NCBI RefSeq assembly: GCF_018709685.1 | Contig: NZ_JABDHQ010000008.1 | Location: forward strand, 62,001 to 126,000 | Direction of reading: 5' to 3' | DNA from: Akkermansia muciniphila | GTDB lineage: Bacteria; Verrucomicrobiota; Verrucomicrobiia; Verrucomicrobiales; Akkermansiaceae | Length of the DNA stretch: 64,000 bases | In this document: positions 7,652 through 29,901 of the stretch, one piece after another | Layout: every line of letters begins with the position of its first letter | How positions within the stretch are numbered: the stretch's first letter is position 1 | The notes under the pieces: generated by a model | The model's database searches: none | What the model was told of the DNA's origin: nothing | Seen by the model: only the letters and a program-made list of their open reading frames with translations | Translations under genes and position numbers: made by a program

Positions 7652-8110
7652 ATGAACATTTCACGTATGCTTGCAGCTACTCTTGCCGCCGCGTTCACTC
7701 TTCCGGCTTTGGCGGATATTCCGGCTTCCCGCGTTCCGGCTCCCGTGAAGGAGCAGGTGCAGAAGCAGTATCCGAACGCCGGGGCCATCGAATGGGATTT
7801 CGACAACGACGAGGATATTTATGAAGCGGAATTCCGCCTCAACGGCCTGGAATATGAAGTAAAGCTTTATCCCGACGGCACCGTCTGCCTGGTCAAGGCG
7901 GACATCTCCCTCCAAAATCTTCCCGCTCCCGTTACAGCGGCTATCGCCCGCGATTTTCCGGGGTACGCACCCCGCCGCGCCAAGCAGATTACCGCCAGGG
8001 GCGCCCTGAAGTACCGGGTGGACTGCCGTTCTGAAACCGCCGCCGTCCGCAAACTGGAGCTTTATTATGCCGCAGACGGCAAACTTCTTTCCCAGAAGGC
8101 GGACGATTGA
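7652..8110 (+). CDS. Periplasmic PepSY-like (DUF2874-type) protein
   Basis: A 152-residue exported protein: a signal peptide ending at ALA (about residue 21) is followed by two copies of a beta-lactamase-inhibitor-like PepSY fold. Each copy begins with a short helix (PVKEQVQKQYPNAGAIEWDF and PVTAAIARDFPGYAP) and continues as a beta-hairpin with a Y.V.....GT/GK turn (YEVKLYPDGTVCL; YYAADGKLL). Such proteins are common in gut bacteria and are thought to modulate proteases or bind ligands in the periplasm; the partner is unknown here. The metalloprotease gene 116 bases downstream is a tempting but unproven partner. Confidence 0.85.
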   Translation: MNISRMLAATLAAAFTLPALADIPASRVPAPVKEQVQKQYPNAGAIEWDFDNDEDIYEAEFRLNGLEYEVKLYPDGTVCLVKADISLQNLPAPVTAAIARDFPGYAPRRAKQITARGALKYRVDCRSETAAVRKLELYYAADGKLLSQKADD

Positions 8111-8225
8111 ACCGGCCGTTCTTCCTCATGTTTCCGTATGACAGAAGCCGGGTGGCCATCCCCCGGAGGCTGACACGGCATCCTCTGGATTCAACAAAGC
8201 CTTATGATATAAGGTCAAACTTGCA

Positions 8226-8984
8226 ATGATTGAGTTATTCAATATCGACCTCCTTTCCTATACGGCCCAGGCGGCTGAAACCGCCCCGCAGCATTCCTAC
8301 ACCATTTACTGGATGATTCTGCTGGGCTCCATGCTGCTGAGCTGGCTGGTCAGCGCCCGCATGAAGAGCCGCTTCAGCGAGTATTCCCAGATTCCCATTC
8401 CGGTGACCGGGCGGGAAGTGGCGGAACAAATGCTGAAGGACAACCACATTACGGACGTGAAGGTGATTTCCACGCCCGGCCACCTGACGGACCATTACAA
8501 TCCGGCGGACAAAACGGTCAACCTGAGCGAATCCGTCTACAATTCCAACAGCATTGCCGCCGCGGCCGTGGCGGCCCATGAAGTGGGGCATGCCGTGCAG
8601 CACGCCCAGGCCTACCACTGGCTGGGCCTGCGGTCCGCGCTGGTCCCCATCGTCCAGTTCTCTTCCAACATGGTGAGCTTCGTGCTGATCATCGGCATTG
8701 TACTGCTGGCCATGGGCGGTTCTCCGTGGGTGCTGGGGCTGGGCATCGGCCTGTTTGCCATCACTACCATCTTCGCGTTCATCACGCTTCCGGTGGAGTT
8801 TGACGCTTCCGCCAGGGCCCTGAAGTGGCTGGACCGCTCCCACCTGATGAATTATTTTGACCACGGAAAGGCCAAGAGCGCCCTGTTCTGGGCGGCCATG
8901 ACCTACGTGGTGGGCGCGCTTTCCTCCCTGGCCATGCTGCTGTATTACGTGTTCATTTTCCTGAACGCGCGCGGCAGGGAATGA
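8226..8984 (+). CDS. Zinc-dependent membrane metallopeptidase (YugP/DUF2268-like, peptidase_M... Zn_2)
   Basis: A 252-residue integral membrane protease. It has an N-terminal membrane segment (about 28-43), a cytosolic or periplasmic domain with the zinc motif HEVGH at 118-122 preceded by SIAAAAVAA, and three further membrane helices (about 142-172, 178-195, 218-250). The downstream VEFDASARALKWL stretch is diagnostic of the YugP family of neutral zinc metallopeptidases, in which the Glu and Asp near it supply the third zinc ligand. Length is usual. The substrate is unknown. It stands as a single gene with ATG 8226. Confidence 0.9.
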   Translation: MIELFNIDLLSYTAQAAETAPQHSYTIYWMILLGSMLLSWLVSARMKSRFSEYSQIPIPVTGREVAEQMLKDNHITDVKVISTPGHLTDHYNPADKTVNLSESVYNSNSIAAAAVAAHEVGHAVQHAQAYHWLGLRSALVPIVQFSSNMVSFVLIIGIVLLAMGGSPWVLGLGIGLFAITTIFAFITLPVEFDASARALKWLDRSHLMNYFDHGKAKSALFWAAMTYVVGALSSLAMLLYYVFIFLNARGRE

Positions 8985-21356: not shown

Positions 21357-22220
21357 ATGACGACCAACCCGCCCGTATTAGGCCTGGTAGCCGGAGACGG
21401 CCTCTACCCGGAATACATTGTCCGGGGGGCGCGCCGCCGGACGCCGGAGCTGCGCATTGTGGCCGTGGGTTTCAAGGGGGAGACCAATCCCGCCGTCATC
21501 CCCCTGTGCGACGTTTACCGGGAGTTCAGCGTGGGGCAGCTCACCAAGCCGTTCTCCTTCCTGAAAAAGCACGGCGTGCAGAACGTCATCATGGCCGGAG
21601 GCATCAACCCCAAGAATATTCTTTCCCTCCGTCCGGACCTGCGCGCCCTTTCCGTGCTGATGCGCATGCCGGAGAAAAACGCGGATTCCCTGCTGGGAGC
21701 CGTCATCACGGAGGCGGAAAAGGAAGGCTTCACCATCCTGCCCGCCTTCACGTACATGGAAGAGCACATGCCGCAGCCGGGCCACATCGCCGGACCGCGG
21801 CCCACGCCCGAACAATGGGAGGATGCCGTCTTCGGCATGCAGATGGCCAAGGAAATCACGCGCCTCCACATCGGCCAGTCCGTCATCGTGCACCATGGCA
21901 CCGTGGTGGCCGTGGAAGCCATTGAAGGCACCAACAACTGCATCCGCCGCGGCGGCGAGCTGGGCAACGGCAAACCCGCCACGCTGGCCAAAGTAGCCCG
22001 CCTGGGGCATGATATGCGCTTTGACATACCCACCGTCGGCCCCGTCACCATTCAGACGTGCGCGGAATGCGGCATCAGGCAAATCGCCCTGGAAGCGGGA
22101 AAAACCATCCTGCTGGAACGGGACCGGGTGGAGCAGCTGTGCAAGAAGCATAAGATCAGCCTGCACGCCCTCCAGCTTCCGGAAGAAGGCGCCCCTCCTC
22201 CGGCAAACCAGCCTTCATAG
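21357..22220 (+). CDS. lpxI: UDP-2,3-diacylglucosamine pyrophosphatase LpxI
   Basis: A 287-residue member of the DUF1009/LpxI family, which cleaves UDP-2,3-diacylglucosamine to lipid X and UMP in lipid A synthesis. It replaces LpxH in bacteria lacking that enzyme. The two-domain architecture is visible: an N-terminal Rossmann-like half (LGLVAGDGLYPEYIVR, VIMAGGINPKN) and the C-terminal half with the family signature VIVHHGTVVAVEAIEGTNNCIRRGG. The Asp that is catalytic in LpxI is expected in the C-terminal half. It follows E2 by 32 bases on the same strand and may be co-transcribed, though there is no metabolic link. It confirms an LPS-type outer membrane. Confidence 0.94.
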   Translation: MTTNPPVLGLVAGDGLYPEYIVRGARRRTPELRIVAVGFKGETNPAVIPLCDVYREFSVGQLTKPFSFLKKHGVQNVIMAGGINPKNILSLRPDLRALSVLMRMPEKNADSLLGAVITEAEKEGFTILPAFTYMEEHMPQPGHIAGPRPTPEQWEDAVFGMQMAKEITRLHIGQSVIVHHGTVVAVEAIEGTNNCIRRGGELGNGKPATLAKVARLGHDMRFDIPTVGPVTIQTCAECGIRQIALEAGKTILLERDRVEQLCKKHKISLHALQLPEEGAPPPANQPS

Positions 22221-22308
22221 AAATCCCCCTGCCCGGGAAACCCGGACAAGGGGAAATCATTCCGCATACGGGATGCAGAATAAAAAACGGCTTATTCACT
22301 CGCCGGAA

Positions 22309-22551
22309 TTAAGCGTCTTTGTCCTTGTGCATCATGGATTTGGTCTTGTCACTTACACCGGAAGCCATATCCTTGACGCCTTCCTTGCCCTTTTCGTAGG
22401 CATCCTTCATCGCCTGCTTGCCCTCTTCCATCTTTCCGGAAGCGGCATCCTTCATTGCCTGCTTGTCTTCTTCCATTTTTCCGGAAGCGGCATCTTTGGA
22501 GCAACCGCAGCCTTCATGCATATGGTTCATATGATCTTTGGAGTTACACAT
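22309..22551 (-). CDS. Small repeat protein, LEA-like, with N-terminal Cys/His cluster
   Basis: An 80-residue protein without a signal peptide. The N terminus is rich in Cys, His and Met (MCNSKDHMNHMHEGCGCSK), a possible metal-binding patch. Then a 15-residue unit KDAASGKMEEDKQAM is repeated almost exactly (Asp becomes Gly in the second copy), followed by a diverged third unit KDAYEKGKEGVKDMA. This is the charged, Ala/Lys/Glu amphipathic pattern of group 3 LEA or YtxH/CsbD-type stress proteins. It sits 33 bases downstream of a longer exported relative on the same strand, so the pair is probably one operon. Function unknown; stress protection is inference. Confidence 0.75.
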   Translation of the reverse strand: MCNSKDHMNHMHEGCGCSKDAASGKMEEDKQAMKDAASGKMEEGKQAMKDAYEKGKEGVKDMASGVSDKTKSMMHKDKDA

Positions 22552-22584
22552 AATAATTAAATGGTTTGTTTTTTATCGTTTGAA

Positions 22585-22914
22585 TTAACCGTTTTTCGCA
22601 GCGTCGCCAATGGCTTCGGCCTTATCGGCAGCCCTGTCAGCCGCATGGTCCACGGCTTCCTTGCTGTCCTGGTAAGTATCCTTGACGGCTTCCTTGCTTC
22701 TTTCGTAAGCGCCCTTCATCGCTTCCTTGCCTTCCTTCATTTTTTCAGAAGCGGCATCCTTGGCGGCTTTGGCGCCCTTTTTCATGTGGTCCTTGGCTTC
22801 GGCCATGTCCTTGTCACCCTTGGTGCAGGAACCGCTGTTACAAGCGCTTTGGGCCAGGGCCACGACGGGAACTGCAACGGCTACCGCTGCTATAGCATAT
22901 ATCAATTTTTTCAT
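22585..22914 (-). CDS. Exported small Ala/Lys/Glu-rich repeat protein, paralogue of the next gene
   Basis: A 109-residue protein with a signal peptide (MKKLIYAIAAVAVAVPVVALA, cut after ALA about 21), so the mature part of about 88 residues is periplasmic. Just after the cut is a Cys pair (SACNSGSC). The rest is an amphipathic helical repeat with about 11-residue periodicity: KAAKDAASEKMKEGKEAMKG, then AYERSKEAVKD, TYQDSKEAVDH and AADRAADKAEA. It resembles group 3 LEA proteins and apolipoprotein-like helices. Together with the cytosolic copy downstream, it looks like a compartment-matched pair. Confidence 0.78.
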   Translation of the reverse strand: MKKLIYAIAAVAVAVPVVALAQSACNSGSCTKGDKDMAEAKDHMKKGAKAAKDAASEKMKEGKEAMKGAYERSKEAVKDTYQDSKEAVDHAADRAADKAEAIGDAAKNG

Positions 22915-22992
22915 GACGTTGTTCTATTTGGATTCATTCCAATAGACCCTTTCTTCATGAAAAACTATGAATACAGTCGTGTCATTCTGCGT

Positions 22993-23319
22993 TCACTCCT
23001 GCAAATCAAAAGCCATAAACGCGGCAGAAGCAACGCAGTCCCGGCACGGAACGCGGCCTTCTTTTTTCAGCTCCCTGCAATGGGAATAACCCAGCTTTTC
23101 CACAAACCGCCGCTTCAGCTCCTCCCTTGACTGCACGGGCGTGCACAGGAGGGCTCCATACAAGGCGCCGCATACCCCGTCAGGCGCTCTTCCCGTGCCG
23201 CACGCGGAGACGGCTTCCAGCAAATCCTCCCTTCCCAGCGCCGCGCAAACGGCCTGGGCGCAGTTGTGGCGCCAGGGTTCCGTGCGGAAGGTGGACAGCG
23301 CCTTTTCTTCAACGTTCAT
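22993..23319 (-). CDS. C_GCAxxG_C_C family redox protein
   Basis: About 108 residues from ATG 23319, chosen because it has a GGGGG run just upstream and begins where the family homology begins; the frame is open to 23460. Conserved pattern: HNCAQAVCAALG, ACGTGRAPDGVCGALYGALL, then a helix and SHCRELKKEG...CRDCV, giving at least seven cysteines. This is the C_GCAxxG_C_C family, widespread in anaerobes and thought to carry redox-active cysteines or a metal cluster. Members often accompany electron-transfer enzymes, but here no such gene adjoins. The exact role is unknown. Confidence 0.87.
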   Translation of the reverse strand: MNVEEKALSTFRTEPWRHNCAQAVCAALGREDLLEAVSACGTGRAPDGVCGALYGALLCTPVQSREELKRRFVEKLGYSHCRELKKEGRVPCRDCVASAAFMAFDLQE

Positions 23320-23456
23320 GCCCCCACTGTAGGCCCGGCCCCCTTCCGGGTCAAGAGCCCCGTCCTCCCTTCCATCCGCGAACTCCGCCGCCATATTCCG
23401 GATGGATTCCGGGGGCGGAGAATATAAGCCGTCCGGGAAACCGCCGGAAACGGCAT

Positions 23457-24161
23457 TCACTTTCCGGCAAGACGGTGGCTGGCCTCCAGGCGTGCGGCCA
23501 GTTCTTCAAAGGGAATGGTCCTGTCCAGACAAAGGCTCACCCAGCTTTTCTTATTCATATGGTAGGCCGGAAAACGGCTGCGATGGTCCACAAGGCCGTC
23601 AAGCTCTCCGGGACAAACCCGCAAATTCAGCACCTCAACCCTCTCTTTGGAACTGCCGCCCAGCTTCAGCCGCGGCACAGCCAGAAAAACGGCATACCAT
23701 TTTTCCGTGTCCTTCCGGCGCACAATGGCGCTCCCCGGCGACTTGCGCCACAGGAATTCCAGTTTGTCCCCGTAAACCTCCCGGACGTGAGCGACGAGGC
23801 TGCGGGCAGGATCGCCGTGGAAGAAATCAGGCTCAAAGCAGCATTCAGCCACATGCCACAGTTCTTCCTCATATTCCCTCCGGAGCGCCCTTTCCTGCAA
23901 CTTGTCTGCCGCCTCCCGGGCTGAATGACGGATGTCCCTCCCGTCTGCATCATGCATTGCCACGCAGACGGAACCGTCCGCGTGTATTTCAAATTCCATG
24001 CGGCGGCGGCCATTCAGCAGTTTTGTCCGGTACAGAAAACCGTTTTCTCCGCGAACGCAGCCGAAGGGGAGCAGCTTTTCCTCACACAGTTTCCTGTCTC
24101 TGAAAACGCGCTCCACGGCTTTTTCATACCAGGTTTTCCGGGGAATGCGGTGAAAGAACAT
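23457..24161 (-). CDS. MmcQ/YjbR family protein with N-terminal extension
   Basis: About 234 residues from ATG 24161; the frame is open to 24302, but the added part does not look like protein. Two parts are visible: residues about 1-115 are not recognised (RIPRKTWYEKAVERVFRD..., beta-rich), and residues about 120-234 show YjbR features: a WRKSPGSAIVRR strand, KWYAVFLAVPRLKLG, an LNLRVCPGELDGL segment and the family end RSRFPAYHMNKKSWVSLCLDRTIP. YjbR has a CyaY-like fold and binds DNA or acts in unknown pathways. Typical YjbR proteins are about 120 residues, so this is a fusion-like long form. Divergent or convergent neighbours give no hint. Confidence 0.85.
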   Translation of the reverse strand: MFFHRIPRKTWYEKAVERVFRDRKLCEEKLLPFGCVRGENGFLYRTKLLNGRRRMEFEIHADGSVCVAMHDADGRDIRHSAREAADKLQERALRREYEEELWHVAECCFEPDFFHGDPARSLVAHVREVYGDKLEFLWRKSPGSAIVRRKDTEKWYAVFLAVPRLKLGGSSKERVEVLNLRVCPGELDGLVDHRSRFPAYHMNKKSWVSLCLDRTIPFEELAARLEASHRLAGK

Positions 24162-27663: not shown

Positions 27664-29901
27664 TCATTTTTCCAGACGGGGCCTGAAGCCGCGCAGCCGC
27701 AGGGAATTGAACACCACGCACAGGGAGCTCAGGCTCATGGCTCCGGCGGCAATCATGGGGTTCAGCGTAAGGCCGAAGGCGGGATACAGGCACCCGGCGG
27801 CCAGGGGAATGCCGATGATGTTGTAAAAGAAGGCCCAGAAGAGGTTCTGCCTGATGATGTGCAGCGTGGAGCGGCCCAATTGAAGGGCTTCCGCCACGCC
27901 CACGGGATTGCTCTTCATCAGCACGATGTCGGAAGACTCCATCGCCAGCTCCGTTCCGGATTTCATGGAAATGCCTACCCGGGCGCAGGCGAGCGCGGGG
28001 GCGTCATTCACGCCGTCCCCCACCATCGCCACCTTGTCCCCCCGTTCCTCCATTTTCATCACATGGGTGGCCTTTTCATCCGGCAGCACGTCGGAAATGA
28101 CTTCATCAATGTGGAGTTCCCCCGCCATGTGGCGGGCGGTGGCGGCGTTGTCCCCCGTCAGCATGACCACGCGCAGGTTCATCCGCTTCAGATTGTCCAC
28201 GGCCGCGCGGCTGTCCGGTTTCAGGGAATCCGCCACCATGATCACTCCGGCAGGACGGTCTTCCCTGCCCACATAAAGCGGCGAGGCTCCCTGCCGCATG
28301 AACTCCCGCAGGCGCGCCTCCTCCTCACTCCATGAAATCCCCCTGTCCTTCATGAAGCTGAGATTGCCCACCGCGTAAGACACGCCGTCCACCGTACCGG
28401 AAATGCCGCGGCCGGGGACAATGGACAAATCAGCCACCGCGCGTATGGGAAGGTCCAGCAGCCGGGCATGGTCATAAATGGCTTTACCTACCGGATGCTC
28501 GGAGCCCTGCTCCAGGGCCGCCGCCATCTCCACCAGTTCATCCGCATTCATGGAATGTTCCGGCAGAACGGCCACCACCCGGGGCTCCCCTTCCGTCAGG
28601 GTGCCCGTCTTGTCAAAGACGACGGTATCCACGCGGCTCAGGGCCTCAAGGGCGCTGGCGGACTTGCACAGGATGCCCAGGCGCGCGCCCCGCCCCGTAC
28701 CCACCATGATGGCGATCGGGGTGGCGAGGCCCAGGACGCAGGGGCAGGAGATCACCAGCACCGCAATCGCCCTGGCCAGGGCAAAGGAAAAGCCCTCTCC
28801 GGCCACCAGCCATGCGACAAACGCAATGAGCGCAATGGCAATCACTGTGGGGACAAAGAAATAGCACACCCGGTCCGCCAGCCGCGCAATGGGCGCCCTG
28901 GACTGGCTGGCCTGCTCCACCAGGCGGATCATGCGGGCCAGCGTGGAATCCCTGCCCACGCGCTCCGCACGGATTTTAAGATACCCGGCGCGGTTGAACG
29001 TGCCGCTGATCACCCGGTCCCCGGCCGTCTTGTCCACGGGCATGCTTTCTCCCGTCAGGTCGGATTCGTCCAGCGCGGCCTGCCCTTCCTCAATGAGGCC
29101 GTCCACCGGAATCCTCTGCCCGGTCTTCACCACCACCAGGTCCCCGGCCCGGAGTTCATCCAGCGGGACGGCGCGTTCCGCGCCGTCATGCCACACCAGG
29201 GCTTCCTGGGGAACCAGCTTCACCAGTCCCTTCACGGCGGCGTTCGTCTTTCGGTAGGAGCGGCGTTCCAGATACTTCCCCAGGGAAATGAGGGTGACGA
29301 TCATGGCCGCGGACTCAAAATACAACTCCATCCCGTCCACATTGGCGCCCTGCCACAGGCCCGCAATCAACAGAAACAGCCCGTACAAAAAGGCGGACCC
29401 CGCGCCGATGGCGATCAGGGAATCCATATTGGGAGACAGCGCGGCAAGCTGGCGGACGCCATTGATCAAATAATGCCGGTTCAGCCATAAAACCGCCCCC
29501 GCCAGGACGCACTGCGCCCACAGATTCAACCAGAGCCCCCAGCCCCCTCCCGGAACGGGCCAATGCCACATAGGCCCCATGGACAGGTACATCAGCGGGA
29601 CCAGCAGCAGAACGGACCAGACAAGGCGGGAACCGCCGTTTTCCTCCTCACGGGCCTCTTCCTCAGTGCCGGAAAGCGGTTCTTCCCGCCAGTCCGCCAG
29701 ATGGAAGCCAGCTTTCTCCACCACCTTCGCCAACCGGTCCCTGGCCGGGGAATCATGCTCCCGGAACACAACGGCCATGCGCCCCGTCAGCAAATTCAGC
29801 TCAACGCGTTCCACACCCTCCAATTCCTCCACGGCGTGCTCCACCTTGGCGGCGCAACCCGCACAGTGCATGCCGGAAACCAGATAATTCCTTTCTTCCA
29901 T
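27664..29901 (-). CDS. copA: Copper-transporting P1B-type ATPase
   Basis: A 745-residue efflux pump. The N-terminal heavy-metal-associated domain carries GMHCAGC (Cys13, Cys16). The membrane CPC motif is at about 386-388 (SCPCVLGLATP), the phosphorylated Asp at 430 in DKTGT, and the hinge GDGVNDAPAL near 645; the actuator DLTGES is at about 281-286. The pattern of a single HMA domain and CPC is the Cu+ P1B-1 type, protecting the cytoplasm by pumping copper to the periplasm. It is alone, with a palindrome (29953-29970) upstream that could be its copper-responsive operator. Confidence 0.95.
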   Translation of the reverse strand: MEERNYLVSGMHCAGCAAKVEHAVEELEGVERVELNLLTGRMAVVFREHDSPARDRLAKVVEKAGFHLADWREEPLSGTEEEAREEENGGSRLVWSVLLLVPLMYLSMGPMWHWPVPGGGWGLWLNLWAQCVLAGAVLWLNRHYLINGVRQLAALSPNMDSLIAIGAGSAFLYGLFLLIAGLWQGANVDGMELYFESAAMIVTLISLGKYLERRSYRKTNAAVKGLVKLVPQEALVWHDGAERAVPLDELRAGDLVVVKTGQRIPVDGLIEEGQAALDESDLTGESMPVDKTAGDRVISGTFNRAGYLKIRAERVGRDSTLARMIRLVEQASQSRAPIARLADRVCYFFVPTVIAIALIAFVAWLVAGEGFSFALARAIAVLVISCPCVLGLATPIAIMVGTGRGARLGILCKSASALEALSRVDTVVFDKTGTLTEGEPRVVAVLPEHSMNADELVEMAAALEQGSEHPVGKAIYDHARLLDLPIRAVADLSIVPGRGISGTVDGVSYAVGNLSFMKDRGISWSEEEARLREFMRQGASPLYVGREDRPAGVIMVADSLKPDSRAAVDNLKRMNLRVVMLTGDNAATARHMAGELHIDEVISDVLPDEKATHVMKMEERGDKVAMVGDGVNDAPALACARVGISMKSGTELAMESSDIVLMKSNPVGVAEALQLGRSTLHIIRQNLFWAFFYNIIGIPLAAGCLYPAFGLTLNPMIAAGAMSLSSLCVVFNSLRLRGFRPRLEK

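Follow-up and report, generated by a model that had tools for sequence, protein, structure and literature searches.

Two adjacent genes of Akkermansia muciniphila were found to encode related hydrophilic proteins, one of them with a signal-peptide-like start, and to be preceded by a dyad that recurs before uvrA and before the gene for a 147-residue protein. The reading that we prefer, at a probability of about one half, is that the pair forms a two-gene operon of genus-restricted hydrophilins serving two compartments, and that this operon belongs to a small regulon with uvrA. Homology between the two products, constraint on both coding sequences, amphipathic periodicity, hydrophilin composition and conservation of the signal at three loci are demonstrated here, and the sharing of the dyad by the pair, uvrA and the 147-residue protein gene is new. 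Literature searches returned no work joining Akkermansia with hydrophilins, none on transcription or an operator of Akkermansia uvrA and, for late embryogenesis abundant (LEA) proteins, an unrelated review only.

Genomic context and kinship of the two genes

The stretch of DNA analysed (the window) comprises 64,000 nt of Akkermansia muciniphila, positions 62,001-126,000 of the forward strand of contig NZ_JABDHQ010000008.1 (assembly GCF_018709685.1, here G000). On its minus strand two open reading frames stand in tandem. The long gene comes first (22585-22914; a 109-residue protein with a predicted export signal and 11-residue repeats) and is followed, after 33 nt, by the short gene (22309-22551; an 80-residue protein without a signal peptide). 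An earlier note on this DNA had placed a pair of LEA-like twins at 22309-22914, and these coordinates correctly cover both reading frames; what that note observed was confirmed in part, and its interpretation is partly supported.

Past the short gene lies a terminator-like hairpin (22224-22254, minus strand; 14 pairs, 10 of them GC), which is statistically weak because the region yields two such sites against a shuffle mean of 2.0. Beyond the short gene an LpxI gene is found on the opposite strand. The upstream neighbour on the pair's own strand (22993-23460, minus strand) resembles the C_GCAxxG_C_C family of putative redox-active proteins (PF09719, E 3.7e-5), at 24.2 bits below the cut-off of 27; genes for a YjbR-domain protein and a WecG/TagA glycosyltransferase also lie upstream of the long gene on that strand. 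A sigma-70 scan of 22100-23500 gave three sites, and the 400 bases that precede the long gene hold none on its strand. A 15-codon upstream reading frame (22911-22958, minus strand) shares an ATGA overlap with the long-gene start codon. It was rejected as coding, being cut by a TAG in G004 and carrying residue-changing substitutions as judged by eye; it may be translationally coupled to the long gene.

The two proteins are homologous, as the earlier note had proposed for these neighbours. A single pairwise BLASTP comparison gave 42% identity over 73 residues (E 2e-12), comparison of the two profiles gave a probability of 98.2% (E 3.1e-14), and in a search of their own genome one twin matched the other at E 2.6e-6. 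Both genes are under purifying selection: with the window as reference, dN/dS was 0.11-0.21 in 10 comparisons of the long gene (no synonymous change occurring in the same-species one) and 0.06-0.20 in nine comparisons of the short gene.

Distribution of the pair

Single-sequence and profile searches alike gave strong matches to the long gene in 12 of the 76 Akkermansia genomes, and the thirteenth genome in each genus search reached only E 0.006-0.007. One of these weaker matches (G028, profile search, E 0.007) was rejected, as it sits in a different protein that we take to be ATP-synthase b subunit-like; the other (G076, single-sequence search, E 0.006) contains three internal stops. Ten of the 12 genomes with strong matches have the short gene as the neighbour of the long one, and in all ten the gene order and a gap of 33-34 nt are kept; next to the long gene of the other two, G004 and G081, no short gene was found. 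When the short protein was searched at E up to 0.1, 4 of 59 genomes responded, namely G000, G017, G004 (within the long gene) and G055 (E 0.07).

Across the order, a search with the long protein and an E limit of 0.01 matched 28 of 239 genomes, 12 of them Akkermansia and 16 others, the latter at E 1.4e-6 to 0.0096. The one of these 16 that was read, in G239, is a repeat lipoprotein, and the remaining 15 may include distant homologues. A phylum-wide profile search at E up to 1e-4 matched 12 of 387 genomes, comprising 11 Akkermansia and G482, again with a repeat lipoprotein. Thus no convincing relative outside the genus was found among the 239 genomes of the order or the 387 of the phylum, and the pair's carriers are assigned to the same genus as the window. 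Two of the named relatives are records of Akkermansia and the third is one of Akkermansiaceae. Two Pedobacter matches besides (L012, L013) were rejected as chance; in L012, the one read, the protein is longer and the likeness is confined to the start. L009, L010 and L011 were taken as records of G080, G064 and G081, and each was counted once. The long-protein alignment omits G017, whose protein is identical to that of G064, and its window row lacks the first Met; the short-protein alignment omits G017 and G061, both identical to included rows.

The long protein carries a predicted export signal and an 11-residue period

The long protein begins with MKKLIYAIAAVAVAVPVVALAQ, and residues 1-21 (22852-22914, minus strand) read as a signal peptide with a predicted cleavage site between ALA and Q. 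The first Cys, residue 25, is without a lipobox; it is kept in all 11 alignment rows, and the second Cys is absent from G004 and G081. The short protein has no such start, which bears out, as read from the sequence, the claim that only one twin carries an export signal.

Residues 41-106 of the long protein (22597-22794, minus strand) can be written as six 11-residue repeats (KDHMKKGAKAA, KDAASEKMKEG, KEAMKGAYERS, KEAVKDTYQDS, KEAVDHAADRA and ADKAEAIGDAA). In the mature protein lag 11 was the best of 28 lags tested (z 4.0, reached in none of 2000 shuffles), with lags 14 (z 3.8) and 4 (z 3.1) also high. Its hydrophobic moment peaks at 98.5 degrees (0 of 1000 shuffles).

The short protein carries a Cys/His/Met-rich head and 15-residue units

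In place of a signal peptide the short protein opens with the head MCNSKDHMNHMHEGCGCS (residues 1-18; 22498-22551, minus strand). The Cys/His/Met-rich character ascribed to this start is real: in the alignment, positions C2, S4, D6, H7, M8 and G14-C17 are invariant in all eight distinct sequences, with the stretch from M8 to G14 differing in length among them. Met makes up 10 of the 80 residues.

The head is followed by two 15-residue units, KDAASGKMEEDKQAM (22453-22497, minus strand) and KDAASGKMEEGKQAM (22408-22452, minus strand). These had been described as an exact duplication that showed recent growth of the repeat. The duplication proved near-exact, with 14 of 15 residues identical and a difference of 5 bases in 45 (4 if the best registers are taken), and the claim of recency is not supported. 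Compared with the single unit of G066, unit 2 has two base differences and unit 1 has five. Of the 10 short-gene carriers, G000 and G063, the two genomes of the window's species, have two units and the other eight have one. Repeat number, the constancy of which would have counted against the earlier note, therefore varies between species, and either a gain in the window's species or a loss in G066 fits this difference. In the two-unit protein lag 15 was the best of 28 lags (z 7.7, 0 of 2000 shuffles); in the one-unit protein of G066 it ranked second (z 3.2, P 0.004), after lag 29 (z 3.3). Lag 11 reached only z 2.3 with two units and z 1.9 with one.

Relationship to LEA proteins and hydrophilins

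The hydrophobic moments of both proteins peak at 97-98.5 degrees (shuffle P values of 0, 0 and 0.001, from 1000 shuffles). AlphaFold2, given alignments of four and three sequences, modelled each as one long helix at low confidence (pLDDT 49.6 and 64.4), which is weak evidence for a helical fold. GRAVY values are -1.19 for the long and -1.26 for the short protein, with Gly contents of 8.0% and 10.0%. The limits for hydrophilins, as printed in PMC7448490, are a hydrophilicity index above 1 and Gly above 6%, and with hydrophilicity taken as minus GRAVY both twins pass them. Hydrophilins are a class by composition, not descent, of which induction by osmotic stress is a part, and the twins are placed in it solely by composition.

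No Pfam or NCBIfam model reaches its cut-off for either twin. A Pfam scan at E up to 10 listed six families for the long protein and none for the short, which has no NCBIfam family at that level either; LEA_4 was listed for neither, in a scan whose HMMER filters drop most weak matches. The sub-threshold likenesses of the long protein include apolipoprotein (E 0.0005, 20.3 bits, cut-off 90) and the Ag473 lipoprotein (E 0.0002, 22.1 bits, cut-off 100). Sequence matches in the PDB were a designed helical repeat (E 0.0018) and two further entries (E 0.37 and 0.48) for the long protein, and three entries at E 0.62-0.67 for the short; all were rejected as homology and taken as shared helix composition.

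The description of the twins as LEA-like thus holds for their physics (hydrophilin composition, the 11-residue period of the long protein, an amphipathic helix) and not for family membership, given the unmatched LEA_4 model. The group 3 LEA 11-mer is printed as TAQAAKEKAXE in PMC7215670. Proteins of this group are further characterised by accumulating on dehydration or other stress. Like that group, the long protein combines an 11-residue period with amphipathic-helix hydropathy and many charged residues; the period and amphipathic helix by which the group is recognised are clear in the long protein and weak in the short, which departs from group 3 LEA proteins further by its Cys/His/Met head and 15-residue units. 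Zmo0994 of Zymomonas mobilis is described, in the available text of PMC7448490, as LEA-like, as bearing a signal peptide and as tied to stress tolerance in E. coli. The long protein resembles it, by this description, as a bacterial LEA-like protein with a signal peptide, whereas the twins include a cytosolic partner of which that portion of the account has no counterpart.

The long protein is also similar to the exported repeat lipoproteins of G239 and G482, being a short exported chain with 11-residue-like repeats. Those proteins differ in having a Cys at a lipobox-like position, as judged by eye, and in this likeness descent is inseparable from shared composition. In G482, a genome of the same class, two small exported repeat lipoproteins are adjacent (L106, 1501-2161), a possible parallel of the twin arrangement.

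A dyad is shared with uvrA and with the gene for a 147-residue protein

The start codon of the long gene is preceded, at a distance of 13 nt, by a dyad, TTGGAATGAATCCAA (22928-22942, minus strand; extended form CTATTGGAATGAATCCAAATAG, 22924-22945, minus strand). The hexamer TCATGA lies 12 nt upstream of it (22955-22960, minus strand) and was noticed after the fact. The pattern TTGGAATGAWTCCAA has two exact sites in the window's own genome, one before the twin pair and one before uvrA (contig C45 of G000, 175901-175915; L054, L134). The product of this uvrA is a double-length UvrA of 1841 residues, and the layout of the site is the same in 10 relatives. A third copy, with one mismatch, stands 47 nt before the ATG of the 147-residue protein gene (contig C23 of G000, 7940-8442; L056, L110, L135). 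This protein has a signal-like start and no Pfam match, and its gene lies downstream of one labelled recG-like by eye. Matches to it are strong in the same 12 genomes, 43% identical in G065 and weak in seven more, giving 20 of 76 in total.

In 11 related genomes the pattern TTNGAATGAWTCNAA has 31 sites, at least one per genome, against one for the reversed pattern. Thirty of these were read, the thirty-first being the uvrA-type site of G004; 26 precede the same three genes (uvrA in 10 cases, the 147-residue protein gene in eight and the pair in eight) and four lie elsewhere. The same search of 30 genomes, chosen for completeness from the 64 Akkermansia genomes without a strong long-gene match, gave three sites in two genomes and no control matches, and none of the three precedes uvrA, the 147-residue protein gene or the pair. 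Looser matches are not evidence: the window holds four at up to three mismatches against a shuffle mean of 3.19, and the whole genome nine at up to two mismatches against two for controls, the nine including both exact sites read a second time in reverse.

Conservation of the dyad is sharpest at uvrA. Across 11 leaders (the window's own genome and 10 others, G004 being omitted) all 15 dyad bases are invariant, compared with 9 of 60 bases upstream. At the pair 11 of 15 dyad bases and 34 of 60 upstream bases are invariant, so that the whole leader is well conserved and the dyad does not stand out. At the 147-residue protein gene the dyad is present in 9 of 12 leaders, and an ungapped, ATG-anchored count finds 2 of 15 dyad positions invariant against 26 of 115 elsewhere, a low figure that results from indels and from G059-G061. 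In all 11 uvrA leaders and all 12 pair leaders exactly 12 nt separate the dyad from an upstream TCATGA, which occurs at that spacing in none of the leaders of the 147-residue protein gene. G059-G061 have an intact dyad at uvrA, a changed one at the pair and an eroded one at the 147-residue protein gene, which indicates that the control is not kept across the whole clade. As all this evidence comes from one clade, the co-occurrence may also reflect shared descent.

The dyad could instead act as RNA, an alternative that we regard as improbable and under which it would form a hairpin in the pair leader, the upstream TCATGA would pair with the start-codon stretch, and temperature or a binding protein would switch translation of the exported protein. 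Such a fold can be drawn (22912-22959, minus strand; the dyad hairpin, with CAUGA paired to the start-codon stretch), and was assessed by folding against shuffles and by conservation of its pairs. The 54-nt stretch over the start codon (22906-22959) folds with z -3.68 (0 of 200 shuffles), but an 81-nt stretch stopping before the ATG gives only z -0.62. In all 12 genomes 13 of the 14 pairs hold; G004 and G081 have both partners of one pair changed, and G059 has one wobble. Against this, 11 of the 14 never vary and one is broken in G059-G061. Moreover, TCATGA is self-complementary, so two copies would pair in any case. At uvrA the dyad overlaps, in all 11 leaders, a promoter-like sequence (TTGGAA-N17-TATAAT-like) with 6 nt between its second hexamer and the ATG. 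A dyad in that position would probably not be transcribed, which favours a DNA operator, and this is the more likely reading of the dyad.

Candidate regulators

Operators of the Fur/PerR/Zur type are 7-1-7 inverted repeats centred on AATnATT. The uvrA form of the dyad, TTGGAATGATTCCAA, fits that pattern, and the pair form TTGGAATGAATCCAA departs from it in the centre. The verrucomicrobial LexA motif is TGTTC-N4-GAACA. It has no match in the window at up to one mismatch (shuffle mean 1.16, likewise for the window), and the dyad is a different sequence. The classical LexA DNA-binding domain (PF01726) was found in none of 16 Akkermansia genomes, in a search that recovered it in 10 of 14 control genomes, nine of them over the cut-off. 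LexA was therefore set aside as the regulator of the dyad. Against this stands the statement, in PMC8262928, that a LexA repressor occurs in phylogroups AmI and AmII; Akkermansia may have a divergent LexA.

A possible role for the pair

On the preferred reading of a hydrophilin operon co-regulated with uvrA, the two charged, low-hydrophobicity products would each be able to form one long amphipathic helix. The long protein would be exported and, probably after cleavage, would be soluble in the periplasm, and the short one would stay in the cytosol with its added Cys/His/Met head. Under stress, each twin might then coat membrane surfaces or partly unfolded proteins in its own compartment, an action suggested by analogy with hydrophilins and LEA proteins and by the company of uvrA. 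A putative dyad-binding protein, answering to a presumed inducer, probably controls expression through TTGGAATGAATCCAA. Since variants of the dyad precede uvrA and the gene for the exported 147-residue protein, the pair would be expected to respond to DNA-damaging or oxidative conditions, and the control signal common to the pair and uvrA makes a stress role more likely than the sequence of the pair alone had suggested.

A wider and decidedly speculative scheme is a stress regulon of Akkermansia's own. Its putative regulator would bind TTGGAATGAWTCYAA, accompanied at two of the three loci by a TCATGA lying 12 nt upstream, and would join nucleotide-excision repair, through the 1841-residue double UvrA, to helical protectants, namely the exported 147-residue protein and the hydrophilin twins covering cytosol and periplasm; the cytosolic twin might in addition sense redox state or metal through its head. 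A three-locus signal joining uvrA to exported and cytosolic hydrophilic helical proteins is a concrete hypothesis, cheap to pursue, and supplies a bait for the regulator. If hydrophilins are indeed paired across two compartments in one operon, the function of such proteins in bacteria could be probed cleanly at this locus.

The conserved Cys/His/Met head could bind metal or act in redox chemistry, and this raises the alternative, unlikely in our judgement, that the short protein works mainly as a buffer for metal or redox state, with the helix as a tether and the MC..DHM..GCGC head either oxidised sacrificially or binding Cu, Zn or Fe. The invariance of C2, H7, M8, C15 and C17, the richness in Met and the upstream neighbour's sub-threshold resemblance to a redox-active family would suit such a buffer. 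It accords less well with the exported twin, which consistently keeps just the first Cys, with the short protein's lack of any listed family, or with the position of the heavy-metal P-type ATPase gene (27664-29901), almost 5 kb away with other genes between. It is similarly doubtful that the twins, instead of protecting against stress, help in the envelope or in assembly as small helical proteins that coat surfaces. The apolipoprotein and Ag473 likenesses of the long protein and the small exported repeat proteins of G239 and G482 point that way, but an amphipathic charged helix tends, in our judgement, to give such sub-threshold matches, one twin has no export signal, and the dyad is common to uvrA. 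That the twins are low-complexity helical sequence with no selected function, as their failure to match any family above a curated cut-off might suggest, is very improbable indeed: dN/dS values of 0.06-0.21, with the window as reference, already argue against it, as do the gene order and spacing kept wherever both genes occur.

One genome, G066 (L015, L085, L089, L121), is window-like at the twin locus, resembles G004 and G081 at the 147-residue protein gene and resembles G081 upstream of uvrA, a mixed likeness that suggests recombination between Akkermansia lineages.
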